DNA of 42,865 nucleotides from a virus. The DNA is taken from the IMG/VR virus record IMGVR_UViG_3300020182_002225, positions 1 to 42,865 of that record. The stretch is one strand, 5' to 3'. The stretch's first letter is position 1. Every line of letters begins with the position of its first letter. The position numbers and the translations under genes are program-made. Positions 1-32,009 of this stretch are shown piece after piece. The notes beneath the pieces are model-generated. The model saw only the letters and a list, made by a program, of their open reading frames with translations. It was not told where the DNA came from and did no database searches.

Positions 1-196
1 AAACTTTACTAAAATAATTACATAATACTTCTCTGTCAATCTGTTCTGATAATGCATAAATTTCTGTATCTTCAATTTGCGACAGTTCTATGTTGAACAC
101 GCCATTAATTACCTGACAAAATGTATGTGTATCTAGACGCAATCGAGGATTACTTTTTAAAATTCTATCTAATTCAGTTAATATTTTAAAGTTCAT
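1..196 (-). CDS. Unknown phage protein, N-terminal part (truncated by window edge)
   Basis: The minus strand is open from an ATG at 196-194 to the window edge, giving 65 residues starting MNFKILTELDRILKSNPRLR. The ATG follows directly on the TAA of the upstream gene (199-197) with no gap, which is typical of translational coupling in this operon. The visible part is mixed hydrophilic and probably helical, with two cysteines and no recognisable motif, signal peptide or membrane segment. It is the last gene of the accessory operon visible here and continues beyond the window. I do not recognise the family. Confidence 0.6.
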   Translation of the reverse strand, partial: MNFKILTELDRILKSNPRLRLDTHTFCQVINGVFNIELSQIEDTEIYALSEQIDREVLCNYFSKV

Positions 197-739
197 TTAA
201 TTGTTCAAACCATTTATATATGTTGTCACGAATATATCACTATGCTCTACGTGTTGATTCCATTGTAACATATGTTTCTGTGCAAAGTCAAGTATTAATT
301 TATTCTGTTGTTTAATTTCTTTCTTCATGCCGTCAACATCAACATACCATTCATAGTTAGGATAAGTTATATTAAACCCACCTGCTTCTAGCCACCACTT
401 TAAACTCGCATCATTTGGTCTGTATACTAATTGTATATCAGCATGTGGATATTGTTCGATTATCTGATCAAAATAATAGGGCCATTCGTGACTCATTAAT
501 AACTTAATACCTGTACTATTAAACGGTGCTAATAAGTTTTCTATACTAAGATCCACCGGAAACTCCATTCCTGTACCAAAGTAACTCTCACAGTGACCAG
601 AAAAATCATTATGTTTATAAACTCTGTGAGGTGCTCTATCACTAGTGTCATATTTAGGATCTTGTTTTATCTCTCTGGCAATGCCACTCCACCGAGATCC
701 AGGTACACCTGTAAAGAATATTAGTTTTGAATCATTCAT
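197..739 (-). CDS. Small P-loop / sulfotransferase-like protein
   Basis: A 180-residue protein. Seen: after a short beta strand (KLIFF) comes a glycine-rich loop, TGVPGSRWSGIAR at about residues 10-22, placed like the 5'-phosphosulfate-binding loop of sulfotransferases or a degenerate P-loop. It lacks a full Walker A GxxxxGK[ST]. A second strand (DIQLVYRP, about residues 101-108) resembles the strand-plus-Arg that binds 3'-phosphate in sulfotransferases. Several tryptophans and tyrosines follow. Known: short sulfotransferase-like proteins are common in marine T4-like phages. Inferred: a nucleotide- or PAPS-dependent transferase acting in the same pathway as the neighbouring methyltransferase. 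The start overlaps the stop of the upstream gene as ATGA. The alternative is a nucleoside kinase fold. Confidence 0.5.
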   Translation of the reverse strand: MNDSKLIFFTGVPGSRWSGIAREIKQDPKYDTSDRAPHRVYKHNDFSGHCESYFGTGMEFPVDLSIENLLAPFNSTGIKLLMSHEWPYYFDQIIEQYPHADIQLVYRPNDASLKWWLEAGGFNITYPNYEWYVDVDGMKKEIKQQNKLILDFAQKHMLQWNQHVEHSDIFVTTYINGLNN

Positions 740-1347
740 TTAATTATCACTCTAACAACACCAAAAAACGGATCACGATGCACTGTATTATGATATACAA
801 TTTCTACATCTTGATCAATAGTTCTGTTATTTAGTTTAGCAAGATACCAGTATAATTGATCATTTGCTAGATGTGTGTATATTTCTTCTCGGGTGGTTTC
901 TTTTTGTCCATGCCAAAAGTATTCTACATCACCATATTGTTTCCAGGTTTCAATTTTTTTCCATTCATCAATGGGCTGATTTTCATTGAAACTTATCCAC
1001 ATTTTATCACACTTGGATAGTGCACGTTCTAGATTTTCATGTATGTTTCCAAAATGCAAACTGTTCACAGCGATTCCATAATTAAATTTTTGCAAGTCTT
1101 CAAATGCTTTATCATCTATATATGCAAATGTATCTGCTTCCAGTGTTCGATCTACACCATATATATTAGGATAAAATAATTTTAAATTATTTTCACCACA
1201 TCCAATATCTAAGATATTATTATCGCAACTTTCAATGAAGTTATATAAACTTGTATTCATAAAGTATGGCATATAATCACCACGACGGCTAGTATATTGA
1301 AGTTGTCTTATATAAAACTGCCAAGTATCGTCATAATGCTTTATCAT
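736..1347 (-). CDS. SAM-dependent methyltransferase (class I)
   Basis: I place the start at the ATG at 1347, giving 203 residues. The frame is open to an ATG at 1416, but that would run inside the upstream gene, while 1347 lies 16 bases after that gene's stop and has an AAAGAA-rich leader. Seen: motif I NNILDIGCGENNLK (about residues 43-56), then motif II YGVDRT (about 63-68) whose acidic residue would bind the SAM ribose, and a post-II strand FNYGIAVNSLHF. These are hallmarks of Rossmann-type class I methyltransferases, although the protein is short and has no evident substrate domain. It overlaps the next gene by ATGA. Neighbouring glycosyltransferases and sulfotransferase-like genes suggest a small-molecule or glycan substrate, but this is inference. 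Confidence 0.72.
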   Translation of the reverse strand: MIKHYDDTWQFYIRQLQYTSRRGDYMPYFMNTSLYNFIESCDNNILDIGCGENNLKLFYPNIYGVDRTLEADTFAYIDDKAFEDLQKFNYGIAVNSLHFGNIHENLERALSKCDKMWISFNENQPIDEWKKIETWKQYGDVEYFWHGQKETTREEIYTHLANDQLYWYLAKLNNRTIDQDVEIVYHNTVHRDPFFGVVRVIIK

Positions 1348-1363
1348 TGTGTTCTTTCTTTTC

Positions 1364-2455
1364 TTAAAAAATAATACCATCTTCAGATTCAATTGATATA
1401 ATATCCCAATTATCACCCAAATAATGCGTTTCCGACATACGACTCACCGTTTCAATATTATTATTGACAATATTCGTTGGTTGCATACTTTTAATAGTAG
1501 TTAAAAATTCTTGATTTACGACTTTTCCTATCTGGTAGTTATTGAATATGTTTCTGTTTTGTAACTCAAAATGTTCAATCCAATGATTAAATCCAGTACT
1601 ATTATAGAGATAATTATAATTATCATTATAGTCTATTTCAAATGTTCCATCAATTATCATCATATTACTAATATCCCAAGCAGTAGGATCATCAAATTGA
1701 AAATATGCAGTTAGATAATCTTTTCCTAAAATCTTTTTAAGAGCATACACGTTATATTCAGAACCTTGAAATGCAAATTGTGAGAAGTCTGGTTGCACCA
1801 TTTCTTCATAAAATTTCTCATGCCATCCGCCATCTACCGTTTTGCCATCAATATCAAATACTAAACAACCATTGTTTCTATCAAGTTCATTTGCTCTGGA
1901 AGAACGTAGATATGCAGATTCGTAAAAATGTATATATGAATTTATTTTCTCTAACGCATTAAAAAATTCATCATTTTTATCATCCGATAATTGATAAAAA
2001 TCTTCAAGTGTTGGATGATTTAGAATAAAATCAGATATTTCATAATGTGTTACTCCATTTTTCTTCATATCGAAGATATCTTTTTGTAACTTTTTACTTA
2101 AATACGGAGTTTTATATTTCGTAATCATGCTTGTTGTAAATCCACGATGTAAATAATTAGTCGTTTCCCATGACATACCAATGTAAGCATACCCTATCCA
2201 TTTTCTGCCTGAAATTTTTTCTATGGTACGTATTGCTGTATTGATTTGGTCAACGATCATCTTAGCATGTTCAGTATAATTGGGAGAATGGTCACCTTGC
2301 TGTAACAATATTGCATGGTCTCTTGTCCATCTGGCAATATGCCGATTATTAATAAAAGCACGATACCAAGAGTCCACAAATTCATTTTGTAGAAGTTCAA
2401 TTTTAACAGACAAATGATTTTTAAATTTTATGTTAATCCACTTTGGTGTTGTCAT
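1364..2455 (-). CDS. Hypothetical protein, 363 residues
   Basis: Not recognised. The N-terminal half is mainly helical and rich in Trp, His and Tyr, for example WIGYAYIGMSWETTNYLHRG at about residues 86-105. The C-terminal half contains acidic beta-rich stretches (CLVFDIDG, FQFDDPTAWDISNMMIIDG) that look like a small jelly-roll or metal-binding domain. There is no cysteine cluster, signal peptide or membrane helix. Its start overlaps the stop of the B12-type radical SAM gene as ATGA, so the two are probably translationally coupled and may work together. The FDIDG pattern recalls calcium- or haloacid-dehalogenase-type loops, but too little matches to assign either. It could equally be a substrate or accessory protein of the radical SAM enzyme. 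Confidence 0.6.
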   Translation of the reverse strand: MTTPKWINIKFKNHLSVKIELLQNEFVDSWYRAFINNRHIARWTRDHAILLQQGDHSPNYTEHAKMIVDQINTAIRTIEKISGRKWIGYAYIGMSWETTNYLHRGFTTSMITKYKTPYLSKKLQKDIFDMKKNGVTHYEISDFILNHPTLEDFYQLSDDKNDEFFNALEKINSYIHFYESAYLRSSRANELDRNNGCLVFDIDGKTVDGGWHEKFYEEMVQPDFSQFAFQGSEYNVYALKKILGKDYLTAYFQFDDPTAWDISNMMIIDGTFEIDYNDNYNYLYNSTGFNHWIEHFELQNRNIFNNYQIGKVVNQEFLTTIKSMQPTNIVNNNIETVSRMSETHYLGDNWDIISIESEDGIIF

Positions 2456-4494
2456 TTTTTTACGATTCCATTAAAATCATTTATATTACATTCCAATGTA
2501 TATACTTGTGTATCAAAACTCATATCTTGCCGACGCACTTCATCGTTTAATACTCTTGGATCCTCTCTAGTAGTTTCATGTTTAAATCTATGCTCAACTT
2601 TAAAAGTAAGTTGTTCATTTTCATCAACCCGCATATTAATAGTTCCCCAATATGGACTTACAATAAATCCTCCAAACTCGGACAGGTCGTCATCTAAATC
2701 ATGATGCATATTTAATTCAAATGCACCATATGTTTTATATAGAATCCAAGCAAATGGCAAATATTCATTTGCTAAACTTGCACTAAATTGTAATTTCTCA
2801 GTGTCGCCGCTGAAATAGTCAAATGATTGTCCAGTTTCTTGTGGAACATAATCTACAAAATCATCATTGGTTAATTGTTTAAAATCAAAAAATTGTGTTA
2901 GACCAGGTCGATACTGTGCATTTTTTACTGTTCCATCTGCGATATTCACAGCAAGATATAACCAAATCTGCATAAACTTTAATCTAATAAATCTATGTAA
3001 AATAGTATTAGCATAATCTTCTGTATACCAATTACTCATAAATGTATTATCCCATGGTTTGTCTATCCATTGTAATTTATAATCTGCCCAATTAACATTC
3101 AGGTCACTAAATGGCGCATCTCCACATGTCATTCCAGGACTAATTGCAAACATCCATTTTCTTGTGTTATGTAAAACATGTAAACTATGCAGAAATTCGG
3201 CTGGACCTTCAGTAGGAAATCCTACAACCCAGTTAACGTGATTCTTCATACCAACTTTAGCACCATCACGTAGATTATTTTCAATTTCCCAAACTTTTAC
3301 CTTTTTCTTCATATCGTCTAAAACTTTTTCACTGCCACTTTCGACTCCGAAACTTAGACTCATACATCCACTATCAGCAATCTTCTGAAATAGTTCTAAA
3401 TCCATCCGTCCATCACAACGTGCGTAACTATTCCACCTGATATCAAGTTTTTTATCAATAATCATGTTTACGAGATTTTTGAATTCTTTAAATGCACCAT
3501 TCGCAAGACTATCTACAAACCAGAACCGACGAGTACCATATGTATCTATTTGATATTGCATTTCATCAATGACACGATCACTTGTTCTAAATCTATATTT
3601 CCAAAACCAGGTTTCAGCACAGAAACTGCACTTAGCAACACAGCCTCTGCTAGTCTCAATACTTGCTCCTTCCGGATGTTGATATAGATTTAAGTCATAA
3701 TCACTGTAATCTGGAAATGGCAATTGATTTAAATCTAGTTTACTCTGAAAACCACCAAATGTAACCATCTCTTTATTCATTGGAAGTTCTTTATAGTTTT
3801 CTAATAATGTTAATAGTTCTTGTTCACCTTCGCCCGTAACACGATAATCAATAATTCCGGATTTAAAATCAAGTGTTGAATAAATTAGATCCTCAAACCA
3901 ATCATTAAACGCTTCTGGTCCACCTACTACAATCTTAGTTGATGGACTGCGTTCTTTAATTTTTTCAATCATGTACATTGTACTCAACAGGTTGGTCAAG
4001 TATACACTAAATCCAACTATGTCATCGCCTTGTTCAATAATTCTATCAATGCATTCATCTAATTTAGGTTTAATAATTGGAAAAACTTCATCATCATAAA
4101 CAGGGCGCTCCCATGCGAAATAATACCTACTTTCCCAATAATCTTTATCATGATTTTCTTTACAATAATGATAGCACTCAACGTTTAAGTCATAGACATT
4201 GACACGATATCCATAATGTCTAAGTAAACCACTGAGTCTTGCAATATTATATGGAGGAAAAATAATTCCCCATGCTGGTGCAATAATCATGGAAATTCCA
4301 TCATTACTTTCATATGGGTTTACTTCAGTGTAATAATTATATCCTCGTGGGTGTACTTTATTTTGTACTACTGGTATTCTTTCAGTATCACCCAGATGAC
4401 TTTCAGCATGATCTATTCGATCTTGCTCAATAAGTTTTTTAATAACCTCATCACGATCTTCGCTTTCAAAGATTATATCTTTATTTTTAGCCAT
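2452..4494 (-). CDS. B12-binding-type radical SAM protein
   Basis: A 680-residue protein. Seen: residues about 65-230 form a Rossmann-like cobalamin-binding-type domain (PPYNIARLSGLLRHYGY, then a YDLNVE strand, DDIVGFSVYLTN and TKIVVGGPEA). The radical SAM motif follows as SRGCVAKCSFC with C285, C289 and C292 for the 4Fe-4S cluster. Later core strands include LSFGVESGSE, and about 250 residues of C-terminal extension follow. The DxHxxG cobalamin-histidine motif is absent; many members of this class lack it. Known: such proteins methylate unactivated carbons or rearrange rings, as in hopanoid, fosfomycin and P-methyl pathways. The gene is the fifth radical SAM gene in the operon and overlaps the upstream one by 22 bases. 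A GGAG about 10 bases upstream supports the ATG at 4494. The substrate is unknown. Confidence 0.88.
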   Translation of the reverse strand: MAKNKDIIFESEDRDEVIKKLIEQDRIDHAESHLGDTERIPVVQNKVHPRGYNYYTEVNPYESNDGISMIIAPAWGIIFPPYNIARLSGLLRHYGYRVNVYDLNVECYHYCKENHDKDYWESRYYFAWERPVYDDEVFPIIKPKLDECIDRIIEQGDDIVGFSVYLTNLLSTMYMIEKIKERSPSTKIVVGGPEAFNDWFEDLIYSTLDFKSGIIDYRVTGEGEQELLTLLENYKELPMNKEMVTFGGFQSKLDLNQLPFPDYSDYDLNLYQHPEGASIETSRGCVAKCSFCAETWFWKYRFRTSDRVIDEMQYQIDTYGTRRFWFVDSLANGAFKEFKNLVNMIIDKKLDIRWNSYARCDGRMDLELFQKIADSGCMSLSFGVESGSEKVLDDMKKKVKVWEIENNLRDGAKVGMKNHVNWVVGFPTEGPAEFLHSLHVLHNTRKWMFAISPGMTCGDAPFSDLNVNWADYKLQWIDKPWDNTFMSNWYTEDYANTILHRFIRLKFMQIWLYLAVNIADGTVKNAQYRPGLTQFFDFKQLTNDDFVDYVPQETGQSFDYFSGDTEKLQFSASLANEYLPFAWILYKTYGAFELNMHHDLDDDLSEFGGFIVSPYWGTINMRVDENEQLTFKVEHRFKHETTREDPRVLNDEVRRQDMSFDTQVYTLECNINDFNGIVKK

Positions 4495-5717
4495 TGGTCT
4501 CTATACTCCGCTAATTTAGGATGTACCAATCCTATATCTTGATTACGTATCTGATCATATTTAACTGTTCGTTTTGCCCAGTTAAGTCTACGGGCATCTA
4601 GGTCATCAAATTTACTCCGAAGTCTGAATACCGTTGCATCCATTCTGCATTGTGTTTTTCTATACTCAGGTAGGGTTTCAACTCGCTGTTCGATCTGATC
4701 AGCAATTTTCATTCTATCATCGTGTGGAATTATGTCTATGCTCATATCTTCTGGCCAATTCACATGATTAAAAACTAATATATTATTGCTATGTTCTTCA
4801 TGTTCTTTCCAAAAGTCAATAATATTAGGTAAATCAAAAACATTATAGGCTTGAACTGTACTCAATATATTTACTGTGCTTACACTACTAATATTCCTGT
4901 ACATATGATAATTAGTTTCAATAGTATTCCACTCGCTCGGATGACGTATATAATCATTTGTATATCCTATGCCATCAATGCTATATTGAATATCAACACT
5001 ATCAAACTTTTCTAACCAGTTAATTACTTTACCTTTTCCTCTGGTACCATTGGTTGTTATATCTAAATGTAAATGTGTATTACCAGAATCAACGCACCAT
5101 TTAAGAAATTTAATAACACCAGGCATGAATAATGGTTCGCCGCCTGCCAACTTTATGGTTTTTATATGAGGAATAAGTGCTTGTAAACTTTCATACATAG
5201 TTGGATTATTAATCCACTCTTGTAATTCAAACCAACTTTCGCCAGTTACTTCTTCTAATTCTGGATGCTTTTTGTGTTCATCTGCAAACGTACTACTAAC
5301 TGCAACAAAGCACATTCTACATCCTAGATTACAAAATCTACCAGGACGCAAATCTAACCACAATGGTTTTTCTGTTGTATTACCAGTCTCTACTGAAATA
5401 TCCCAATCATGCGTTGGCGCTTTAAAGTAATTATTATGTGCCCATCTATCACTGCCGCCTCCTTTTTCATCTAATGCATAGCACATATGACATGCCTTAA
5501 TTGGTTTTCCATCAATCATATCTTGTCTAATTTTTTGATATGCAGGACTATTCCAAATTTCTTCAAATGTTTTATCAGTTAAATCTTCAAATAAACTTTC
5601 TCTCCAGTCGGCAACACAGCATAATTTTGCAGCGTTATCTGTACTCAAATGCATATGCGTAAATGGCAGCACACAAAAGTGTTTATTATCTTTTACCTGT
5701 TGTTGCCAATTTGACAT
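4473..5717 (-). CDS. Twitch/SPASM-type radical SAM protein
   Basis: A 414-residue protein. Seen: an N-terminal auxiliary-cluster module comes first, with C15 (FCVLPFTHMH), a CC pair at 33-34 and CHMC at 76-79. The radical SAM core follows with RFCNLGCRMC (C129, C133, C136) and a SAM-binding GGEP at 192-195. Known: twitch and SPASM domains hold extra Fe-S clusters in peptide- or carbohydrate-modifying radical SAM enzymes, but usually follow the core; here the module precedes it. The protein shares layout and wording (FC-x-x-P, CC, C-x-x-C-[WY]) with the gene just upstream, with which it overlaps by 32 bases, so the two look like diverged tandem duplicates. It probably acts in the cytoplasm on an unknown substrate. 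Confidence 0.85.
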   Translation of the reverse strand: MSNWQQQVKDNKHFCVLPFTHMHLSTDNAAKLCCVADWRESLFEDLTDKTFEEIWNSPAYQKIRQDMIDGKPIKACHMCYALDEKGGGSDRWAHNNYFKAPTHDWDISVETGNTTEKPLWLDLRPGRFCNLGCRMCFVAVSSTFADEHKKHPELEEVTGESWFELQEWINNPTMYESLQALIPHIKTIKLAGGEPLFMPGVIKFLKWCVDSGNTHLHLDITTNGTRGKGKVINWLEKFDSVDIQYSIDGIGYTNDYIRHPSEWNTIETNYHMYRNISSVSTVNILSTVQAYNVFDLPNIIDFWKEHEEHSNNILVFNHVNWPEDMSIDIIPHDDRMKIADQIEQRVETLPEYRKTQCRMDATVFRLRSKFDDLDARRLNWAKRTVKYDQIRNQDIGLVHPKLAEYRDQWLKIKI

Positions 5718-7365
5718 CTTTTTTCCTCATTTCCTTAGCAGTACAAAACTGAACCATTTTATATATATCTTCCAAACTTTCTTTCCAATTTTCTTTTCTT
5801 ATTTCATCTAATTTCTTTCCTGAAGCGAAAAATGTTTTCCATTGTGATGGGTCATCTTCTACTGAATTCATATGTGTTAATACTGCTTCAAGACGGGTCT
5901 CTGTAAGACTTAACCATGCGTTATCATCCGGCCATTTCTTTCTAATATCAACATAAAATTTACGATAACGATTTGTGATATATGATTTCATTGATTTAGG
6001 AATATTTTGAGTGTTTAAATAATCTGGTCCATATAAGTTATGAACAATGATATTACTATCGATGGTATTCCAGTTTTGTTCACGCATCCACCATTGCATA
6101 TCTAACAAATGTAACACATTCATAATACTGACTGTCATTGTTACGCTTGCTTTAAGATTTGTAAATTCATTATTGTCAATACGTTTCATATTCTTATAAG
6201 CAGTATTCCATTTTCCAGGATATCTGATATACTCAAAATGTTCATATATACCATCAATGCTCATTCCCAAATTAACTTCCTTAAATTTCTTCCACTGTTT
6301 AAATATAGCACCTGGTACACCAGCCATATTAGTATTGTAGTCTAAAATTAAATCTTTGGCATATCCATTATCTATCGTATACTGCAGTAACTCTCTATGT
6401 GTATGATTTATAGTAGGTTCTCCGCCAGTAAAATAAAATCTTTTTATATTTGAAATTTCATTTTTTATATTTGAAACTAAGTCAGTTTTGTCAAACCATT
6501 CAAATGGAGAATCTTTAACAATTGCAGAACCGTTTTCATCTGTTTCAATAGTAACATCTCCTATTCCACGATTAAAAAATGTATTCTTACCTGTAAACTT
6601 CTCCCAATCTTTATACCATAAATTACTATCTGTTGGTCCACAACTACGACATGCTAAGTTACACTTATTACCAAATCTTAGATCCCAATGTTCAATAGGA
6701 AAATCTTCATGATTTATAGAACCATCTTCTGCAGTATTCAAAATTGCATTATCAAAAGTTTGATTAAATGCTTGATTGGTCCAAGTTCGTCTACTACCGA
6801 TACCATTATCTTCCTCATCCCAACATAACTTGCATATCTCCGAACGTTGCCCACTAAGCATTTCTTTTCTTAACTTTTTCCATGCTGTGGAATTTCTATG
6901 TTCCGATATGTTATCAGTTGTCGTAAGCGCAGTGCCGTCATCTTTAAAGACAGTGCCATATGCCTCTTCACCATCAAAGCCTTGATTATTAATCATCTGA
7001 CAACACATTCTGACTGTGCCATTTGCATTTGTACTAACATGATTCCATGGCACTGCACAGAATGACTTTCTTCTTCCATCATCTTTCTTCGCAATCATCA
7101 CTGATCGCATAGCATGTAGTTCATCTACAGTGTAATCAAATTTAACCGATATAGATTTAATCAATTTGTCATCTATATGTGTGGCAATTAATGTTCCTAA
7201 AACAACTGACTTATCTAAATCATGTTCAACAACGCTCTCTAACACATCCTTGGGACACTCTGGATCTTGAACCATATCAATTCTCTGTTCAGATGTTCTA
7301 AATACTGACAAGTCAAATTTATTATCAGTATCAATTTCCTCATATTTTAATCCATCATCATTCAT
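5686..7365 (-). CDS. Twitch/SPASM-type radical SAM protein with N-terminal extension
   Basis: A 559-residue protein. Seen: an N-terminal region of about 100 acidic, helical residues has no recognised motif. It is followed by the auxiliary-cluster module FCAVPWNHVSTNANG (C103), CC at 121-122 and CKLC at 178-181. The radical SAM core has NKCNLACRSC (C235, C239, C242) and TGGEP at 313-317. The cysteine order and spacing match the downstream neighbour, which supports duplication. The extra 100 residues resemble a leader- or substrate-binding element in position only; no RRE fold can be claimed by eye. It overlaps the upstream gene by 8 bases and the downstream one by 32. The reaction is unknown. 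Confidence 0.85.
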   Translation of the reverse strand: MNDDGLKYEEIDTDNKFDLSVFRTSEQRIDMVQDPECPKDVLESVVEHDLDKSVVLGTLIATHIDDKLIKSISVKFDYTVDELHAMRSVMIAKKDDGRRKSFCAVPWNHVSTNANGTVRMCCQMINNQGFDGEEAYGTVFKDDGTALTTTDNISEHRNSTAWKKLRKEMLSGQRSEICKLCWDEEDNGIGSRRTWTNQAFNQTFDNAILNTAEDGSINHEDFPIEHWDLRFGNKCNLACRSCGPTDSNLWYKDWEKFTGKNTFFNRGIGDVTIETDENGSAIVKDSPFEWFDKTDLVSNIKNEISNIKRFYFTGGEPTINHTHRELLQYTIDNGYAKDLILDYNTNMAGVPGAIFKQWKKFKEVNLGMSIDGIYEHFEYIRYPGKWNTAYKNMKRIDNNEFTNLKASVTMTVSIMNVLHLLDMQWWMREQNWNTIDSNIIVHNLYGPDYLNTQNIPKSMKSYITNRYRKFYVDIRKKWPDDNAWLSLTETRLEAVLTHMNSVEDDPSQWKTFFASGKKLDEIRKENWKESLEDIYKMVQFCTAKEMRKKDVKLATTGKR

Positions 7366-8251
7366 TTGGCTGTCCTAATTTATTATTATTTTCTATCCAA
7401 CGATTCGTTATGCCAATCGCTTTATCAGTGTCCAATTTTGGTACTATTTTTTTTATTTTTTGCCAGAATATGGTAGAATCTTTATCTAAGTTATCAGAAT
7501 CAACAACATGTAAATTCTTAAAAGTTCTTACATACTTTGGTAAAAAAGTTATGTATGTATTTATTAAAGATTCTTTATGGTCTTCTTTAAGGACATTTAT
7601 GTCACTGGTGTGCTTCAATCGTATGTTTTTATTTTTAACAATCGATGAGTGATGTGTGTCATATGAAACAGGATTTTTATAATTATTAGATTCTAACAAA
7701 TCATTTAATAGTGCATAAAGTTCATGTCTCCAAACCCAATCAAATTTTTTTGTTTCATCTATCATAAATTGTTGTTGTTTTTCTGACAGTGTAGTAGAAA
7801 TTGTTGAGTTTATAAAATCAACAGTAATAGGACAATCTACTTTTACCGCTAACTTTTTTATCGCTAGATCGGCAAAATAGTCTATTGAATCTTTTTTAGG
7901 AAATGCTAAGTCAATATAAATTATCGTAATATCTGGTAAATATCTTTTATAAAATTCTATAGAATTATTGCTTGGATGGTCTTTTACAATAATTCGTTTT
8001 TTAATAGAAACGAAATCACCCTTGTATCTTGTTTCAATACCATTCTCAAATTTAGTTATATCTTCTACTAAATCCATATATCGTAACGCACATATTGAAT
8101 GATATTGATTCACATTTTTATTTACCCACGTGTATATGTCTTCAAATTGATCACAGCATGTACTAAGTGTATGAGCAATGTGTTCGCCACCAAGACCAGC
8201 AGGATACACTATCAGTATTGGATGCGCATTAATAAAATCATTATGATTCAT
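7358..8251 (-). CDS. P-loop-like / sulfotransferase-like protein
   Basis: A 297-residue protein. Seen: an N-terminal strand and loop PILIVYPAGLGGEHIAHTLS (residues 11-30) resemble the strand-loop-helix that opens sulfotransferase and other P-loop folds, but without the Lys-Ser/Thr of Walker A. A second hydrophobic strand, DITIIYIDLAFP, lies near the middle. Two Trp-rich helices (FDWVWRHELYALLND) and a lysine-rich C-terminal part follow. It sits between two pairs of radical SAM genes and shares one base with the upstream gene (TAATG), so it is co-translated with them. Inferred: a transferase or nucleotide-binding partner. It differs in sequence from the smaller sulfotransferase-like protein at 197-739, though both begin the same way. 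Confidence 0.45.
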   Translation of the reverse strand: MNHNDFINAHPILIVYPAGLGGEHIAHTLSTCCDQFEDIYTWVNKNVNQYHSICALRYMDLVEDITKFENGIETRYKGDFVSIKKRIIVKDHPSNNSIEFYKRYLPDITIIYIDLAFPKKDSIDYFADLAIKKLAVKVDCPITVDFINSTISTTLSEKQQQFMIDETKKFDWVWRHELYALLNDLLESNNYKNPVSYDTHHSSIVKNKNIRLKHTSDINVLKEDHKESLINTYITFLPKYVRTFKNLHVVDSDNLDKDSTIFWQKIKKIVPKLDTDKAIGITNRWIENNNKLGQPNE

Positions 8252-9645
8252 TATTGTTCCTTGAAAAATTCTATTTCATTATCACTGTAATTTACAAGAG
8301 ATTCTGCATCATTGATGTCACGAATAGGCACTAAACTAAGTGAGCCTTTCATTCTTCCATTTGCTCCAGTTGTATTCCATTCTGGAATTTCTGTAATTCT
8401 ATCTTTGAGTTGTTGTGCACGATCAAGAAATCCTGGTGGGGTCATTAGTTTTATTTCTAACCATAAGTCATCATCTATAATATCATGGTGTTTCATTATT
8501 ATTTTACAGTTATCTAAAAATCTATCTTCATTACCGCGATACAAATCCATACTTGCAAAATGTGCACTCATATTAACACTATTTATGTATTGTGTTGCTT
8601 CACTCCAGAATTTTGTACTTCGACTACCATTTGTAGTTACCAATATCCATTGATTTCGGGACTTTAAATATTTTAAAATGTCAATGAATTGTGGATGCAT
8701 GGTAGGTTCACCTCCACCAAAATTCCATCTGATTTGTTCGCCATTACTCCAATTATCTATAATCATATCGATAGTATTAATAACAGATTCAAACGATGGA
8801 AACTTTTCAGTATTACTATGAACTGCCGGCCAACAATAGTCACATGCATAATTACATCGTCTTCCAATGTCCCACAAGATTTGATATGGAATAGGAAAGT
8901 TCATTTCTACTCCAACACTTTCATCTATATTATCAGTGATATAATTCTTACCGCCACGTTTAGTGCCATCATATTGATTATGAGTCACGTCCAGTAACTT
9001 CATATGTTCTACGGTTTTTGCTTTACTTAAAATTACATCCGCACCGCAGCCACAACTCTTAAAAGGACAAACTGTATAATTTTCAGGTATGTCAATACCT
9101 TCACGAATATTGCCTAATAATCCCCAATTTTTTGGTATGTCATCTAATGTACTTTCCCATTTCCATGCACTTGCAGTTGTATCAATATTATCTGTTTGAA
9201 TGTTCTTTCCTAAATTCTTAAAAAAAGTTTCTTCTGCTTCTTTCAACGCATCTTGTAGTTTAATATGTTGTTCGCATGTTTCCCAGCCGTTCTTAGGCAA
9301 CGGCCAGCCACCTATAGTATTTTCATTATACCATTCAATATGCGGATAAGAACCGAATATTCTTTCACGTTCAACCCTCCAGCCTTCTACAGTTGTATCA
9401 TGATGTGCAGTACTATTTCTATGACTACTGGCACAGTTACCATTCCATATATTACCATCGTAATCTATATAAAGTCCACGCACTCCTGCACTACACTGCC
9501 ATCCCTTCCATTTGTTATGTTCTCTTGCAATAGCCTCATCCACACTCATTCTAATAAACTTGCCATTCGTATCATACACACGTAGTTGTTTATTATCTAA
9601 TGGGATCCGAGGATCTGATTTAATAGGCATCTTCCAAAACCTCAT
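8251..9645 (-). CDS. Radical SAM protein with auxiliary-cluster domain placed before the core
   Basis: A 464-residue protein. Seen: an N-terminal auxiliary module has C51 (KGWQCSAG), C71 (DYDGNIWNGNC) and C193-x4-C198-x-C200 (CPFKSCGC), with about 120 residues between its halves. The radical SAM core follows with RRCNYACDYC (C264, C268, C271) and FGGGEP (GGE at 311-313). The module matches the one at the C-terminal end of the neighbouring radical SAM protein, including 19 residues between the first two cysteines, so the domain order is swapped between the two genes. The frame opens at 9645; an ATG at 9630 (MPIKSDPR) has a GAGG 9 bases upstream and may be the true start. It overlaps the upstream gene by 26 bases. 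The substrate is unknown. Confidence 0.85.
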   Translation of the reverse strand: MRFWKMPIKSDPRIPLDNKQLRVYDTNGKFIRMSVDEAIAREHNKWKGWQCSAGVRGLYIDYDGNIWNGNCASSHRNSTAHHDTTVEGWRVERERIFGSYPHIEWYNENTIGGWPLPKNGWETCEQHIKLQDALKEAEETFFKNLGKNIQTDNIDTTASAWKWESTLDDIPKNWGLLGNIREGIDIPENYTVCPFKSCGCGADVILSKAKTVEHMKLLDVTHNQYDGTKRGGKNYITDNIDESVGVEMNFPIPYQILWDIGRRCNYACDYCWPAVHSNTEKFPSFESVINTIDMIIDNWSNGEQIRWNFGGGEPTMHPQFIDILKYLKSRNQWILVTTNGSRSTKFWSEATQYINSVNMSAHFASMDLYRGNEDRFLDNCKIIMKHHDIIDDDLWLEIKLMTPPGFLDRAQQLKDRITEIPEWNTTGANGRMKGSLSLVPIRDINDAESLVNYSDNEIEFFKEQ

Positions 9646-10627
9646 ATCTATTTTTAGGAAGTACTTTTTTACTCATAATGTCAAAGTTACAATGACACAT
9701 ACTTTTTGTACACATTACAGGTTTAGTAGGCCATTTAATAGATTCAGGATATTTCATATTTCCAAGTATTCCGCCAACTCTACACCATCCTATCATAACA
9801 CTGCCATCGAAATCTACAACAATTTGTTCAACACCACTCCAACACAACCAACCTTTCCAGTTATTTGTCTTATCGTTAATAAAACGATGAGCACTACTAT
9901 TTTGTTTCATGTTATTGACATCATCATGCATATCCATACTACCACGATAAATTTTCCATTTCTTATCATGCTGTATTTTATTACCTAATCCCCACCATTG
10001 ATTGTCAATATATTCAATCTGTTCTGGAGTATAATCATATAATGTTTCACCAAAATCAATGATTAGTGGCTGTAATGCAAGTGATATATTTGGAATGTCT
10101 ATTACACTTTCAGCCACCTTTTGACATCTTGGCCATATCTCTGGGTCGTAATGCATCATAACATTTACATGTGTTCTACATTGTTGACTCATTATTTTTA
10201 CAACTTCGATGAAATGCTCTGCATCGCCTTCTTCTGGATGATATGAAAGACATACATGGTCAAATTTTGTTTTATTCTTTTCCCACCAGCGAATCGTTCT
10301 ACTACTATTGCTAATGAATCCTATATCATGACCAATTTCTTTGATGTACTCTGCACATTTAATAAAATCTTTCCAGAGTGTTACTTCTCCACCTGTAAAT
10401 TCAAAATATACAGTTCTAGGATGATAATGAGCAATCGTAGAATCTATGAATTTCTTTACAACATCAAAGTCATTCCATCCAAAACTGCCGTCATTTAGAA
10501 TACTTGGACAATAGGAACATGTGAAATTGCACATATTTCCTAAATTCCAATTAACCACAACCCAGTCTTTGGCTTCATCGTGGTGATGATCAAGTCTATT
10601 ATAAAATTCCTGCGGTCCGAGGGGCAT
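9620..10627 (-). CDS. Radical SAM protein with C-terminal SPASM-like domain
   Basis: A 335-residue protein. Seen: the core comes first, with LGNMCNFTCSYC (C33, C37, C40) and FTGGEV at 77-82. The C-terminal SPASM-like module has C262 (KGWLCWSGV), an IVVDFDG strand, C282 (IGWC) and C306-x4-C311-x-C313 (CTKSMCHC). Known: the C-x-x-G...DG-x-V...C pattern is typical of SPASM proteins such as anaerobic sulfatase maturases and peptide-modifying enzymes, in which extra clusters hold electron-transfer or substrate sites. It starts only 3 bases after a 60-residue coiled-coil gene, which could be a partner or substrate. It is the first radical SAM gene of the operon in transcription order. Confidence 0.87.
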   Translation of the reverse strand: MPLGPQEFYNRLDHHHDEAKDWVVVNWNLGNMCNFTCSYCPSILNDGSFGWNDFDVVKKFIDSTIAHYHPRTVYFEFTGGEVTLWKDFIKCAEYIKEIGHDIGFISNSSRTIRWWEKNKTKFDHVCLSYHPEEGDAEHFIEVVKIMSQQCRTHVNVMMHYDPEIWPRCQKVAESVIDIPNISLALQPLIIDFGETLYDYTPEQIEYIDNQWWGLGNKIQHDKKWKIYRGSMDMHDDVNNMKQNSSAHRFINDKTNNWKGWLCWSGVEQIVVDFDGSVMIGWCRVGGILGNMKYPESIKWPTKPVMCTKSMCHCNFDIMSKKVLPKNRYEVLEDAY

Positions 10628-10630
10628 GTA

Positions 10631-10813
10631 TTAATCCTTGTCTGTCTCAAGTTCATCGAGTCTTGTTTCAAGTCGTTGGACGGATTGTAGTATTTCCCAC
10701 AATTTCCAATCCATTGTTTTAGCAAGTTCTAAAATTTCATTATTGAAATCTGTTGAATTTCTTTCTGCTACAGTTGTATCATTTTCCGGTATTAGTCTAA
10801 TTTTTTTAACCAT
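10631..10813 (-). CDS. Small coiled-coil protein (60 residues)
   Basis: A 60-residue acidic protein starting MVKKIRLIPENDTTVAERN and ending in heptad-like helix with Leu/Ile at regular spacing (EILQSVQRLETRLDELE). AGGAA lies 8-10 bases before the ATG (leader GGACAAATAAAGGAAATTACA). It sits 11 bases after the glycosyltransferase gene and 3 bases before the first radical SAM gene, so it is surely translated as part of the operon. No cysteine is present and there is no obvious leader/core split with GG or GA, so it does not look like a classical thioether peptide precursor. It may be a small adaptor or, more speculatively, the protein that the radical SAM enzymes modify. I do not recognise a family. 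Confidence 0.65.
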   Translation of the reverse strand: MVKKIRLIPENDTTVAERNSTDFNNEILELAKTMDWKLWEILQSVQRLETRLDELETDKD

Positions 10814-10824
10814 TGTAATTTCCT

Positions 10825-11766
10825 TTATTTGTCCCAGCCGGTTGACTTTTCAGTTGCCAAAGGATTATGAACTCTCTTTGGATTATTATAAACACGTTTA
10901 AAGTAGCGTGATAGTTCTGGTGTAGGATCACACATCTCCATACCAAGATTTTCACATAGATAGTCTCCTAATGTTAATGTACGATCATACAGTAAATCTT
11001 CATTCTTTGATAACTCAGAATAAACAGTATCATAAAAAAACGTTTTAAACCAATCATAATTACTGATACTCTCAATGATAAAATCTGAATTGAAATTTAC
11101 ATCATAGCATCCCATCCTAGCACCTAATACTGCCCATAGACCATTTTCAACATCAGATCCAATATTGCACCATGTCAGTAGTCTTTCATAATTTTTAGGC
11201 CATATTCTTCTATTAAACTCACTTGGCGGTACTCTAGTACCTTCATCAAGCGACATTTTTACTCCTTCACGATATCCACTGCGAAACGCTTGAAATGGCG
11301 AGCCACTATTAAATATCATTGAATATGTATTATTCATTTGCTTATAGTCTAGATCCCAACAAAAGTCAAGTTTCTTGGTTTCACTATCTGCGTTCTCATG
11401 TGTGCGCATATCTAATACTAATTGAACTGGCCAGCATTTAATTCCACCATTGCCATAGACCAATCCATTAGTAAGATTTTTAGCTCCCCACGATATTACG
11501 CTGTGACTCAAATCTGTGTTCTCAGGAAAAGATAATGTGATATCAAAAAACTTTTTATCTACAATATTATCACCATCTATCGTAATAAATCTATCAGTTT
11601 TACTAGCACGGGCACATGCCTTATGTGCATTATCAAATCCTTTAACACCATCAATCCTCTGTGCCATTGGAAATTTACTTAGTAGGTCTACATAGTGTTC
11701 TTCTTTGTTCGGTTCATCGTAACTAAGATAGAATATACTTAAATCTTTTATAATAAGCTTTGTCAT
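10825..11766 (-). CDS. Phage glycosyltransferase (GT-A-like)
   Basis: A 313-residue protein. Seen: an N-terminal strand with LSIFYLSYDEPN, then AHKACARASKTDRFITIDGDNIVD with a D-x-D triad (D64-G-D66), which in GT-A enzymes binds the metal and sugar nucleotide. Later Trp-rich segments include ISWGAKNLTNGLVYGNGGIK and WPKNYERLLTWCNIGSDVENG. Known: similar proteins are widespread in T4-like marine phages and are annotated as glycosyltransferases. The target could be phage DNA bases, host surface sugar or a virion protein; nothing in the sequence decides this. It overlaps the upstream unknown gene by ATGA and precedes the 60-residue protein by 11 bases. Confidence 0.72.
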   Translation of the reverse strand: MTKLIIKDLSIFYLSYDEPNKEEHYVDLLSKFPMAQRIDGVKGFDNAHKACARASKTDRFITIDGDNIVDKKFFDITLSFPENTDLSHSVISWGAKNLTNGLVYGNGGIKCWPVQLVLDMRTHENADSETKKLDFCWDLDYKQMNNTYSMIFNSGSPFQAFRSGYREGVKMSLDEGTRVPPSEFNRRIWPKNYERLLTWCNIGSDVENGLWAVLGARMGCYDVNFNSDFIIESISNYDWFKTFFYDTVYSELSKNEDLLYDRTLTLGDYLCENLGMEMCDPTPELSRYFKRVYNNPKRVHNPLATEKSTGWDK

Positions 11767-12383
11767 CTTTGTTCTCTTATATCCTCCATACTGTATGTAG
11801 TAAAAATGTAATCAGCATATATACTTATTTTCTTATATTTATGTTCGTATTTAATTGTCTGTTTTTTACCCGTTAAAATTTTAGAGTAATCTAATTCAAT
11901 TGTGTCAATTAATAATCCTGATTCATTTTTCATTGTTATATAAAATTTATGTGATTTATTGTTTTTAATGATAATATCTTTATCATTATTTTTTTCAACA
12001 AAAAATTCTTCCAGGTTAGATGTTGCCAAGATATCGAATCCATCATCTGTCACATAAATTTTTAAATCTGGTGATGAATGATAATCTATATGGCGAATAT
12101 TATTACTAGCGTTATTTTTTACAATATACTTAGCTGAATCTCTTCTAACAATTACGTAATGCATCTCATCTTTTTTAAAAACCACATTGTACCCATTGAT
12201 AACATAGGTACCATCAAGAAATCTCAACAAATCAGCAGCAGAAAAGTATGCGAAATTATTTTTATTATTTTTATCAACTCTATTTTCAAAGGAAAGAATT
12301 GTACCATCTGAATCAAAGTATACGACTTTAAATGGGTTGTCAGAACTTAGAGTTTTTATACTACGGATCATATACATTCTCAT
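11763..12383 (-). CDS. Hypothetical protein, 206 residues
   Basis: Not recognised. It is Lys-, Asn- and Asp-rich and predominantly beta-strand in character (for example NPFKVVYFDSDGTILSF, MHYVIVRRDSAKYIVKNN, HKFYITMKNESGLLIDTIEL), suggesting a beta-sandwich or repeat-strand domain. FDSDG could be a turn or a calcium-like loop. Its first 23 bases overlap the end of the upstream glycosyltransferase; a later ATG at about 12371 is a possible alternative start. Its position between glycosyltransferases suggests a carbohydrate-related role, which is inference only. Confidence 0.55.
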   Translation of the reverse strand: MRMYMIRSIKTLSSDNPFKVVYFDSDGTILSFENRVDKNNKNNFAYFSAADLLRFLDGTYVINGYNVVFKKDEMHYVIVRRDSAKYIVKNNASNNIRHIDYHSSPDLKIYVTDDGFDILATSNLEEFFVEKNNDKDIIIKNNKSHKFYITMKNESGLLIDTIELDYSKILTGKKQTIKYEHKYKKISIYADYIFTTYSMEDIREQR

Positions 12384-13218
12384 ATTGTTTAATCATATCA
12401 TTTGTCAACCAATCTTTTTCAACATAATGAAACGGCAATGTTTGAATGAAGTTATGTATATTAATTTCCAAATCATCAGATACATTGCTTGTTAATGTAT
12501 CTTGCCAATCAGAGAAAATATTTTTTTCAGGAATGTTTTGAATATAACTTTTCATATGCACAAATGCAGGAAAAGGCAAACTAGATATAAATTTTTCTTT
12601 ACCTAGTATTTTAGCAGCAAGTGCATATGCTACATCCGCACTTACCCAATCTTGGCCTTTGCCTTTTAAGAACTCATTATAGTATAATTCCCAGTTGTTT
12701 ATAATCCTTTCAACTAATCGAAAGAATTCATAAGAAACTTCAGACTTATTAAAGTATGTAAAATTGCTATATACATCAGGTAACTCACAGTCTGTAAATT
12801 TCTTTCTATAAAAATCAGAGATTATTGGTTCATCTCTGAATGTTCTAGGGTTTGTACATAATAACACATCATACTTGCTATCACCTAGCATATCCCACCA
12901 ATGGTCAATCGATTTTGTAAATAATTGATCTGTATCTAATATTATTGTTTCATCAAATGGAGACATGTTAATATACTTCCATTTGTTCTCTATTTTCCAT
13001 GTGCTATTAAGTGCATCGTCATTCCATGGAATATCTACAATGTAATCAAATACATCACAACACTTTTGTTCCAATCTGTCACTTGTTTTTTTATCAACAC
13101 ACAAGCAAATTGCATTTTCACGTTGCGTGGTCTTAATGCTCAGTGCAAGTGCGTATGCCATTCTTAGATAATCATGCTCATCTGTATTTTGGGCTATTAC
13201 AATATATCCTCTACTCAT
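12361..13218 (-). CDS. GT8-like glycosyltransferase (DTD)
   Basis: A 285-residue protein. Seen: the N-terminal IVIAQNTDEHDYLRMAYALA and ENAICLCVDKKT match the UDP-sugar-binding start of GT-A family 8-type enzymes. The metal-binding triad is in FDETIILDTDQLF (D95-T-D97). Later come NFTYFNKSE and LPFPAFVHMK, with a histidine where family members place a second metal ligand. It is paralogous to the next upstream gene (shared IIxFAQNxD-x-x-DY start and DET-x-[IV]-x-[DC]-D centre). The two genes overlap by ATGA. The acceptor and sugar are unknown. Confidence 0.72.
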   Translation of the reverse strand: MSRGYIVIAQNTDEHDYLRMAYALALSIKTTQRENAICLCVDKKTSDRLEQKCCDVFDYIVDIPWNDDALNSTWKIENKWKYINMSPFDETIILDTDQLFTKSIDHWWDMLGDSKYDVLLCTNPRTFRDEPIISDFYRKKFTDCELPDVYSNFTYFNKSEVSYEFFRLVERIINNWELYYNEFLKGKGQDWVSADVAYALAAKILGKEKFISSLPFPAFVHMKSYIQNIPEKNIFSDWQDTLTSNVSDDLEINIHNFIQTLPFHYVEKDWLTNDMIKQYENVYDP

Positions 13219-14078
13219 AATGTAATTCCATTTTCAAAAAACGAATCCAAATGTTTTGTAATGCTTCGTTTATTCATAATGTGAAGATCGGATCGTTGCA
13301 ATCTTACTATATTTCTGACTGTGCGATTTTTAGCAGTTATCATAACAATGTTATCAGGTCCATCGACTCTTAAAATTTGATCGGTATCAAAACTATTAAC
13401 AAGTTTATTGAAGGGAAGATTTGGTACTATAGCATTTACTTCACCATTCAGAATATGCAATGCAATACTGAATGTATGATCATTTCTATATAATGCCACA
13501 TCACATTTATAAAGATTATAATAATACCTATAGTTATTCTTAATATGATTTACCAATTTGAATAGATTCGAAGAGAATTCACATTTTCTAAAGTATATTA
13601 CAGTAGCCCAATACATATCTATGCTAATATCATTAAGTCTGGCAGTATTTGAAGTTTTTGTTTGTGATATATCGGTAAAATCTTTGGTAATCATAAAATC
13701 ATTGCGACTACCCCATACGCCATCTAACTGGTTTGTCATAATAAAATAATCACAATCTATTACCAGTGTTTCATCATATGGAGATAGAGAGTAAACATCA
13801 CCTCGACTTTTATTAATAAACGGTGCACCTTCTACGTTCTTAATAGTATCGCGGTATTTTCGCATGGTACTATCTGTACTTTTTGGTATAACAATAGTTC
13901 TATCAAAATAACAGTCAACCAATTTACGATTTTCATTTAATGATGATTCGTCTGTTATAAGACATATTTCATCAAAGCCAGAAAGATACTTTCTGGCATA
14001 TCCAGCACTTGCACACGATATTTTTACATAATCAACATAATCGTTGTTCTGTGCAAAAATTATTATACCTTTTGTCAT
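13215..14078 (-). CDS. GT8-like glycosyltransferase (DCD)
   Basis: A 287-residue paralogue of the downstream gene. Seen: KGIIIFAQNNDYVDYVKISC at the start, FDEICLITDES, then YDETLVIDCDYFI with D108-C-D110 as the likely metal/nucleotide-sugar site, and NLPFNKLV near the C-terminal third. The DTD to DCD change keeps both aspartates. The histidine seen in the partner after LPF is not obvious here, so the second metal ligand may differ or activity may be lost. The ATG at 14078 follows the TAA of the upstream gene with no gap. The tandem pair suggests either two successive transfers or a hetero-oligomer. Confidence 0.66.
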   Translation of the reverse strand: MTKGIIIFAQNNDYVDYVKISCASAGYARKYLSGFDEICLITDESSLNENRKLVDCYFDRTIVIPKSTDSTMRKYRDTIKNVEGAPFINKSRGDVYSLSPYDETLVIDCDYFIMTNQLDGVWGSRNDFMITKDFTDISQTKTSNTARLNDISIDMYWATVIYFRKCEFSSNLFKLVNHIKNNYRYYYNLYKCDVALYRNDHTFSIALHILNGEVNAIVPNLPFNKLVNSFDTDQILRVDGPDNIVMITAKNRTVRNIVRLQRSDLHIMNKRSITKHLDSFFENGITL

Positions 14079-14426
14079 TTATAAATCTAATGCAATTTCA
14101 ATTTTTGTGGAACTTCTAAGTTGTTCATATTCTTGATAGTAAAAGTTAAGGGAAGAAAAATATCGTTCTGATACTAGTTCTAAGAATTCATTTACATCAG
14201 CAATATTAATAGGTAAATTATTTTTGTCCAATATATTTACATTCATTTTATCAGACTGAACTAAATAATTTAAAAATCCTATTAATTCTTGGGTCACAAC
14301 AAATGTGCCACCATTTTGATAAACATGTAATTCGTTCATTACTTTATCTTGCATAACTTTTCTATTTAAATTAAAATTACGCATTGTATTTTTGTACGAC
14401 AAAATATTTTCTAAATTTTCTTCCAC
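14079..14426 (-). CDS. Hypothetical protein, 115 residues, first gene of the accessory operon
   Basis: Not recognised. It is a soluble, helical, Asn- and Leu-rich protein with no cysteine motif or membrane segment; visible stretches include TFVVTQELIGFLNYLVQSDK and NEFLELVSERYFSSLNFYYQ. It begins about 40 bases downstream of a strong sigma70-type promoter (14466-14494) on the same strand, with a GGAG about 12 bases ahead of the ATG (leader CGTGGAGTAACTAGTGGAA), so it heads the whole operon down to position 1. Confidence 0.65.
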   Translation of the reverse strand: MEENLENILSYKNTMRNFNLNRKVMQDKVMNELHVYQNGGTFVVTQELIGFLNYLVQSDKMNVNILDKNNLPINIADVNEFLELVSERYFSSLNFYYQEYEQLRSSTKIEIALDL

Positions 14427-14465: not shown

Positions 14466-14494
14466 ACTATACTATAAATTTTTTAAAATGTCAA
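14466..14494 (-). promoter_or_regulatory. Sigma70-type promoter of the accessory operon
   Basis: On the minus strand TTGACA (14494-14489) is followed by exactly 17 bases and TATAGT (14471-14466). An overlapping TATAGT gives only 12-base spacing and is ignored. The element lies between the structural gene ending at 14520 and the first accessory gene starting at 14426. The -35 is a perfect match and the -10 differs from TATAAT at one base. No TGATAAATA late element is seen here, so this operon should use host-type holoenzyme rather than gp55. Confidence 0.8.
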
Positions 14495-15590: not shown

Positions 15591-15603
15591 TCGTTACTCC
15601 TTC

Positions 15604-16310: not shown

Positions 16311-16319
16311 TATTTATCA
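16311..16319 (-). promoter_or_regulatory. Late promoter element (TGATAAATA)
   Basis: Minus-strand TGATAAATA lies in the short gap between the giant baseplate gene (ends 16335) and the structural gene starting at 16278. It differs from the T4 late promoter TATAAATA only at the first base of that 8-mer. The same 9-mer precedes both other structural units of the window. Confidence 0.7.
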
Positions 16320-30077: not shown

Positions 30078-30078
30078 G

Positions 30079-30450: not shown

Positions 30451-30471
30451 TCTTAAACTTTTTATTAAGAG

Positions 30472-30480
30472 TATTTATCA
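30472..30480 (-). promoter_or_regulatory. Late promoter element (TGATAAATA)
   Basis: Minus-strand TGATAAATA lies about 22 bases before the gp25 start. The 19 bases from here, TGATAAATACTCTTAATAA, match those before the gp48-like gene except for one base (C for G), though the genes are 10 kb apart. Confidence 0.75.
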
Positions 30481-30512
30481 TCGTATTAACTTCGTACATT
30501 TGAAAATACCAC

Positions 30513-30541
30513 TTGACAATCGTATATTTTTGATGTATTAT
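30513..30541 (+). promoter_or_regulatory. Sigma70-type promoter of the clpP unit
   Basis: TTGACA (30513-30518), 17 bases, then TATTAT (30536-30541) on the plus strand. The predicted start of transcription is near 30548, so the ATG at 30546 would not be in the message; this decides the downstream start at 30564. It diverges from the gp25 late element about 33 bases away. Confidence 0.82.
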
Positions 30542-30563
30542 AGATATGTTGGGAGTAAAAACT

Positions 30564-30767: not shown

Positions 30768-30770
30768 TTA

Positions 30771-32008: not shown

Positions 32009-32009
32009 T

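Follow-up and report, generated by a model that had tools for sequence, protein, structure and literature searches.

The 42,865-nt window analysed here (IMG/VR record IMGVR_UViG_3300020182_002225, positions 1 to 42,865) begins with a gene island at 1–14426 that contains 16 ORFs, all on the minus strand. In the ORF list these are tightly packed: no gap exceeds 11 bases, and neighbours mostly overlap briefly. The longest overlap is 53 bases (1364–1416), or 17 bases if the gene at 736 starts at the ATG at 1380. This arrangement bears out the co-directional operon of 16 genes described in an earlier sequence-only reading. Membrane proteins are rare, and the almost membrane-free character of the island is counted among the new results. 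Two presumed structural genes, gp356 and gp224 (14520–16278, minus strand), lie upstream of the island in an order that is the same in the relatives. Beside them is a large gene (16335–25679) whose gp7/VrlC identity is assigned from position and size, Pfam giving no match. The island is truncated in the window. Another contig of 120 kb, with 99.8% identity over the common part, extends it by ~20 kb and carries ten radical SAM genes, the five of the window and five more.

The first island gene encodes p115 (14079–14426), a small conserved protein with a GTG start and GGAG upstream. It is followed by the glycosyltransferase-like GT1 (13215–14078; DCD motif) and GT2 (12361–13218; DTD motif). The profiles of both match glycogenin (GT8) with E ~1e-5, while Pfam GT8 gives no match. 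The next gene, p206 (11763–12383), encodes a predicted beta-rich, beta-sandwich-like protein that has relatives in phages only. It matches three phage proteins without assigned function, and its fold has no significant match in the PDB (Z ≤5.2). GT3a (10825–11766) is predicted to adopt a GT-A fold (pLDDT 90.7), with a best Z of 9.7, to a glycosyltransferase, over ~137 residues. Most of the structures that match it best are GT-A enzymes, and the DxD residues D64 and D66 are invariant across 44 sequences. The three DxD proteins seen from the sequence are thus glycosyltransferase-like, GT1 and GT2 by the glycogenin profile and GT3a by its predicted fold. A search for GT2 and GT3a in cultured phages gave no match.

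Radical SAM enzymes perform chemistry that is hard to achieve by other means, and the substrates of radical SAM and twitch enzymes include peptides, other small molecules and sugars. We know of no substrate assigned to a phage-borne radical SAM array. The window encodes five such proteins, as had been claimed: each has one CX3CX2C motif, and Radical_SAM (PF04055) matches all five in a Pfam scan and a six-frame search of the contig. Two of them, of groups rC (9620–10627) and rC2 (8251–9645), are followed by the N-twitch proteins NTwiB (5686–7365) and NTwiA (4473–5717) and by a B12-binding radical SAM protein (2452–4494) with PF02310 and PF04055 both over cut-off. NTwiB scores under the Pfam Radical_SAM cut-off, yet at 348 bits it is far over the curated cut-off of 170 bits for N_Twi_rSAM (NCBIfam NF033640), which NTwiA also passes (317 bits). 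This family is named for its architecture and has no assigned function, so membership is silent on the substrate. NTwiB has cysteines at C103, C121-C122 and C178/C181 in addition to C235/C239/C242, and the extra N-terminal cysteines are invariant among its relatives. A bacterial origin of NTwiB is disfavoured: among 84,980 genomes of bacteria and archaea, a pattern-based scan, which leaves absence unproven, found only four loci. Three of these are at 56–73% identity, and for at least one of the four the surrounding contig, from a Bdellovibrionales MAG, has genes of a chromosomal kind.

Peptides are often the substrates of Twitch/SPASM-type radical SAM enzymes, so the island might instead make a ribosomal peptide that is modified by radical chemistry and then glycosylated. 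By profile, the nearest match in the PDB is the peptide enzyme SkfB, and the glycocin S-glycosyltransferases SunS and ThuS are within the structural matches of GT3a. On the other hand, a PqqD-like recognition domain is found in 0 of 35 records, and no conserved small precursor has been recognised among ORFs of at least 60 aa. The 60-aa coiled-coil-like ORF at 10631–10813 has no recognisable counterpart in most relatives. We consider a peptide product of this type improbable.

The other transferases called from the sequence fare less well. The probable class I methyltransferase at 736–1416 is identified by a DIGCG motif and by its relationship to a second probable methyltransferase. The latter is cut by the contig end, which leaves its N-terminal part at 1–196; its full form outside the window (87335–88012 of the genome G002) weakly matches Methyltransf_23. 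The two sulfotransferase-like calls are without support. The protein at 197–739 has a P-loop-like start and the protein at 7358–8251 matches no family, and neither has an informative match in Pfam, NCBIfam or PDB sequences. The remaining gene (1364–2455) encodes a protein of 363 aa that is rare among relatives. As a whole, the original description is therefore upheld for the gene run, the radical SAM proteins and the glycosyltransferases, while the methyltransferase call depends on its motif and on a relative whose family match is weak, and the sulfotransferase calls find no support.

The order p115-GT1-GT2-p206-GT3a followed by a radical SAM array is repeated beside tail genes in IMG/VR contigs. 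The order gp356, p115, GT1, GT2, GT3a is kept in 71 of 72 IMG/VR loci (31 of 32 non-redundant), and a radical SAM gene lies at most six genes past the core in 62 of 64 loci (27 of 27 non-redundant). Conservation over so many loci rules out chance. Also, the profiles of NTwiB and of GT1/GT2 find matches in at least hundreds of stretches in IMG/VR, and the idea that the locus is a rare oddity has been rejected. The conserved glycosyltransferase core is new here, and its carriers are large, mostly uncultured aquatic phages of the jumbo T4-like type. The genes are thus neither scattered among phages nor ordered in this way in one assembly only.

Beyond the core, radical SAM and accessory gene content differs among relatives, with 1–25 radical SAM genes per IMG/VR record. 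Since the complement is unequal, the five genes of the window are no fixed set. The expectation of a complete pathway is not borne out either, as the window is truncated and the longer contig carries ten radical SAM genes. This variability, and the fact that the region corresponds to a host-recognition cluster already described as hypervariable (PMC7029224), would suit a loose genomic island of unrelated cargo at a variable locus that forms no single pathway. We regard this as highly unlikely. The core order is almost invariant, and a second module, GT3b-rE-p192-rD-NTwiB, is found repeatedly in many contigs. Moreover, 421 of 428 radical SAM proteins find their best match in a different contig, which indicates that lineages have been retained and not freshly duplicated. 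Recent tandem duplication of a single radical SAM gene has been rejected on the same count. The radical SAM lineages are old and distinct, which is also new here.

A sigma70-type promoter, TTGACA-17-TATAGT (11 of 12 positions), is predicted at 14466–14494 on the minus strand as the start of the island transcript. A box of at least 10/12 is found upstream of p115 in 27 of 68 relatives compared with 2.5 in shuffled sequence; G002, G003 and G004 also have one before the orthologous p115. A recognisable box is present in under half of the relatives. A sigma70 box of the same kind also lies ahead of the gp47-neighbour gene. In contrast to the island, the structural gene at 15604–16278 is preceded by the T4-like late motif GATAAATA (16311–16318, minus strand), and the late motif is found upstream of the structural gene gp224 in 42 of 58 relatives against 3.2 in shuffled sequence. 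The late motif also occurs upstream of GT3a in 22 of 68. This occurrence has been rejected as a promoter, as GATAAATA can encode the Asp-Lys-Tyr that is conserved close to where p206 ends. The island would accordingly appear to have a sigma70-type promoter of its own, one that distant genomes retain, next to tail genes of the late type, a pairing that is new here. With its own early-type promoter, the island is probably expressed, and probably acts, early in infection; late read-through from the same-strand tail genes is possible.

This timing bears on the option, offered at the outset, that a virion protein is the target, with the glycosyltransferases and radical SAM enzymes modifying tail-fibre or baseplate proteins from the adjacent genes. 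The island always lies directly after tail genes on the same strand, and the near absence of membrane proteins fits a cytoplasmic protein acceptor. GT1 and GT2 resemble glycogenin, which glucosylates protein, GT3a is structurally near protein/peptide glycosyltransferases among others, and relatives carry Asp/Asn-hydroxylase-like genes. However, the structural matches of GT3a are general to the GT-A fold, the nucleotide-sugar and sugar-acid genes of the relatives suit either target, and an early-type promoter at the island start is set against late motifs on the structural genes. Virion decoration fits less well, and we think it unlikely.

The islands of relatives encode sugar-type enzymes, namely UDPG_MGDP_dh, NeuB, Epimerase, Aldolase_II, Aminotran_3 and a carbamoyltransferase. 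QueC-like and nitroreductase-like genes are also found, as are SAM-synthetase genes by sequence resemblance. An early-type promoter together with QueC-like, nitroreductase-like, carbamoyltransferase and SAM-synthetase-like genes could point to a soluble small molecule (a modified nucleotide, a sugar nucleotide or a secondary metabolite) directed against rivals or host defence, with the glycosyltransferases acting on that molecule. Secondary-metabolite clusters have been proposed for jumbo cyanophages (PMC7824862), and rC and rC2 show weak viperin-like matches. But these matches are partial, covering ~100 residues, and score 47 bits (9620–10627) and 54 bits (8251–9645) against the cut-off of 180 bits for viperin (pVip, NF038283). 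In addition, no exporter has been recognised, and the invariant core consists of glycosyltransferases. A small-molecule product is therefore doubtful. A defence-system reading has been rejected, the evidence being just the partial viperin-like matches and one weak candidate-defence match.

Several published systems resemble the island. The host recognition cluster (HRC) of pelagimyophages is described in the available text of Zaragoza-Solas 2020 (PMC7029224) as a hypervariable region beside the gp7/VrlC-type tail region that contains glycosyltransferases and radical SAM cassettes. There, GT8 is the commonest glycosyltransferase and a change of the host surface is proposed. The island is likewise variable, combines glycosyltransferase and radical SAM genes and lies beside a gp7/VrlC-type gene. 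For the gp6 and gp47-like genes of the phage of the window, the nearest isolates are jumbo phages of the RaK2/CBB/PA5oct/SCTP-2 type, and the available text of PMC7029224 makes no mention of an early promoter or of a glycosyltransferase core that is conserved. TARA_ERS488813_N000010, a 183-kb T4-like marine genome, carries 12 radical SAM genes (Nishimura 2017, PMC5332604, available text). Since such multi-radical-SAM marine T4-like phages were already published, and up to 25 of these genes occur per record here, the earlier statement that they occur singly in phages is wrong. G002 has a gene for an Fe-S A-type carrier. TARA_ERS488813_N000010 resembles it in combining many radical SAM genes with such a gene; the genome was published under Fe-S metabolism, with no gene order or glycosyltransferase link given in the available text (PMC5332604). 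Jumbo cyanophages have capsular polysaccharide and metabolite clusters, for which host-surface change or metabolite making has been proposed (PMC7824862). Like the island, these clusters combine glycosyltransferase arrays with sugar- and amino-acid-modifying enzymes, while the term "radical SAM" is absent from the text of that review. Finally, the cultured Vibrio phage K566 carries five N-twitch radical SAM genes interleaved with two GT8 genes, and Vibrio phage K567 has places matching this cluster. No p115/GT1/GT2/p206/GT3a core was seen in the 31 kb of K566 that were examined. The K566 cluster is an independent lineage and is new here.

Based on these observations, we propose that the enzymes of the block, at an early stage of infection, probably make or remodel a sugar structure of an uncommon kind. 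We infer both the product and the target of the pathway. The reading we favour, with slightly less than even confidence, is that jumbo T4-like phages express early a cytoplasmic pathway for glycan tailoring, by which the host envelope is altered. A host-surface glycan is preferred because of the K566 radical SAM/GT8 cluster, the sugar enzymes of the relatives, the assignment of the three DxD proteins as glycosyltransferase-like, the ordered core and the early-type promoter, and both the HRC (PMC7029224) and the jumbo cyanophages (PMC7824862) provide precedents. The radical SAM enzymes, together with the nucleotide-sugar dehydrogenase, epimerase, NeuB, aminotransferase and carbamoyltransferase of relatives, would produce or modify either uncommon sugars or an amino-acid/peptide part. 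These units would then be attached by the glycosyltransferases to an acceptor that they can reach from within the cytoplasm, changing the host surface glycan and hindering rival phages. The variable array may give each lineage a different epitope, as expected in a host-recognition region. The initiating membrane transferase of a Wzx/Wzy-type cluster (Bac_transf) is found in 0 of 35 records, and neither a flippase nor a polymerase nor any other initiating membrane transferase has been seen. As membrane proteins are also few, delivery to the surface would need host machinery.

The position of the radical SAM array behind the ordered glycosyltransferase core, together with the early-type promoter, points to host-surface change over virion decoration, and K566 offers a cultured Vibrio phage in which the link between radical SAM and GT8 enzymes is testable. 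A bolder and rather unlikely version is that a widespread group of jumbo phages has an early radical-enzyme glycan pathway unlike any known from bacteria, in which the glycosyltransferase core and swappable radical SAM enzymes, up to two dozen, would brand the host surface against rivals with chemical marks that differ by lineage. With the ordered core and the early-type promoter, genes so far listed as "auxiliary" become a single pathway that can be tested.

Judged by gp25, gp5-like and other baseplate genes, the 42.9-kb virus record is a fragment of a T4-like myovirus genome. Positions 1-14426 are occupied by 16 genes, all on the minus strand. From its upstream end, this island encodes a core comprising a small protein (p115), two glycosyltransferase-like proteins (GT1 and GT2), a beta-rich protein (p206) and a further glycosyltransferase-like protein (GT3a), and continues with a 60-aa ORF, five radical SAM genes (an unassigned gene, 7358-8251, separates the second from the third), a 363-aa unknown, a probable methyltransferase, another unknown, and a second probable methyltransferase gene interrupted by the contig end. 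The radical SAM identity of the five proteins is a firm assignment by sequence. By profile comparison, GT1 and GT2 fit glycogenin; GT3a has a GT-A fold in a confident predicted model and an invariant DxD. The sequence-only reading had also called two sulfotransferase-like proteins (197-739 and 7358-8251), which found no support in Pfam, NCBIfam or PDB sequence comparisons. The only significant structural matches of p206 (11763-12383) are three phage proteins, including BFVD A0A6J7WDS2, none with an assigned function. Elsewhere in the window, extra matches in the contig comparison reveal a 56-base stretch repeated within the gene for an 1803-aa structural protein (36505-36632).

The gene order of the core is conserved. 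In contigs of two distant relatives (G003 and G004), whose NTwiA proteins (N-twitch radical SAM) are ~26% identical, the p115-GT1-GT2-p206-GT3-type order is kept downstream of tail genes and is followed by radical SAM genes. At least 160 loci were gathered with profiles of NTwiB, the second N-twitch protein, and of GT1/GT2. Among the GT-profile matches listed, the presumed structural gene gp356, p115, GT1, GT2 and GT3a are all present in 72 of 80 loci, their order is kept in 71 of these 72, and a radical SAM gene lies at most six genes downstream in 62 of the 64 loci with enough sequence. Since these loci were found with GT genes alone, the search itself did not create their link to radical SAM genes. 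In a non-redundant set the order is kept in 31/32 loci and a radical SAM gene lies within six genes in 27/27; 62/64 is the fairer figure because thinning by radical SAM identity left only loci bearing such genes. Among the loci found with NTwiB, a second module (GT3b-rE-p192-rD-NTwiB) is recurrent. In two Bdellovibrionales MAG contigs (L192 and L193), rD, rE, p192, NTwi and B12-type radical SAM genes have chromosome-like neighbors, a hint that genes were exchanged or that the module has a bacterial form.

The same locus is found in a 56-kb contig (99.97% identity) and in the 120-kb contig G002 (99.8% identity), where the mainly minus-strand island runs on past the window end. There it includes a few plus-strand ORFs, other genes such as that of a TctA-family tricarboxylate transporter (L017 4624-7217; G002 84624-87217), adjoined by a gene whose product resembles a TctC-type binding protein in sequence, and a second block containing five further radical SAM genes, GT3b and genes for a carbamoyltransferase and a nitroreductase-like protein. 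G002 also carries three adjoining fibre-like genes with near-identical N-termini (L014 6495-13490; G002 26495-33490), as if by tail-fibre gene duplication or recombination.

Radical SAM matches range from 1 to 25 per record, with one above the Pfam cut-off in 33 of the 35 records, which were picked for holding the island, so that these counts are no survey of phages. The highest number is in the 77-kb G017 (IMGVR_UViG_3300044701_002822), which may include chimeric or bacterial sequence. In non-redundant loci, 421 of 428 radical SAM proteins are most similar to one encoded on another contig (median 71% identity), and the remaining seven match best within their own contig at ~42% identity; therefore, the array is not a recent amplification, and its genes are old and distinct. 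G002 has an A-type Fe-S carrier gene (10466-10828), and five of the 35 records have such a gene, which agrees with the association of the two gene types already described for marine phages (PMC5332604).

Earlier papers describe 12 radical SAM genes in one T4-like marine genome (PMC5332604), glycan clusters in jumbo cyanophages (PMC7824862) and, in pelagimyophages, both radical SAM cassettes and host recognition clusters rich in GT8 (PMC7029224). Radical SAM and glycosyltransferase genes were also described as enriched in Tasman Sea phage (PMC7150976). The nearest isolates are PA5oct-type jumbo phages for the gp47-like gene, and the jumbo phages Salicola SCTP-2, RaK2, CBB and PA5oct-type for gp6. 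A search of 50,697 phage records gave no match to GT2 or GT3a. The cultured Vibrio phage K566 has five N-twitch radical SAM genes interleaved with two Pfam GT8 genes, and the core was not found in the region read. K566 is a second lineage in which N-twitch radical SAM enzymes are tied to glycosyltransferases. In the open-access main texts consulted, we found no earlier description of the conserved core, the promoter classes or the K566 parallel.

Two promoter classes are seen. TTGACA-17-TATAGT precedes the island start (14494-14466), and the T4-late-promoter-like [GT]ATAAATA occurs in the window solely ahead of three structural genes (at 40793, 30479 and 16318 on the minus strand). Among relatives, 27/68 have a sigma70 box (10/12 or better) upstream of p115 (2.5 expected from shuffling) and 42/58 have the late motif upstream of the presumed structural gene gp224 (3.2 from shuffling). 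The split is imperfect, with the late motif at 8/68 p115 genes and a sigma70-like box at 11/58 gp224 genes. Sigma70 boxes also lie upstream of p115 in G002, G003 and G004, and of the gp47-neighbour gene in G003, G004 and the window, while late motifs in these three contigs are mostly upstream of structural genes. In the second radical SAM block of G002, the box scores 12/12 before NTwiB (70413-71822) and 10/12 before GT3b. By analogy with T4, the sigma70 type would be early and the late motif late; late transcripts may also read through into the island. A ClpP protease gene and a small coiled-coil gene (30546-31370, plus strand), opposite to the baseplate genes around them, are preceded by their own sigma70-type promoter.

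Of the 1697 island proteins with a length of 100 aa or more, 32 have a hydropathy peak above 1.8, several of them soluble radical SAM proteins barely over this value, versus 9 of 46 in a different part of G002. Bac_transf was not found in the 35 records, and the pathway looks cytoplasmic. The scarcity of membrane proteins and the position of the island would fit decoration of the virion by its enzymes, a reading we consider unlikely and one that the early-type promoter does not fit. PqqD was likewise not found in the 35 records; a modified peptide as the product is quite improbable. The islands of relatives add a UDP-sugar dehydrogenase, an epimerase, NeuB, a class II aldolase, an aminotransferase, a QueC-like protein and an Asp/Asn hydroxylase, and also SGNH-like and SAM-synthetase-like proteins, named by sequence resemblance. 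That the product is a soluble metabolite seems doubtful. Based on the early-type promoter, a glycosyltransferase core that hardly varies, partners from sugar metabolism and the position in a host-recognition region, we tentatively favor the proposal that the island encodes an early glycan pathway, which may be directed at the host surface.
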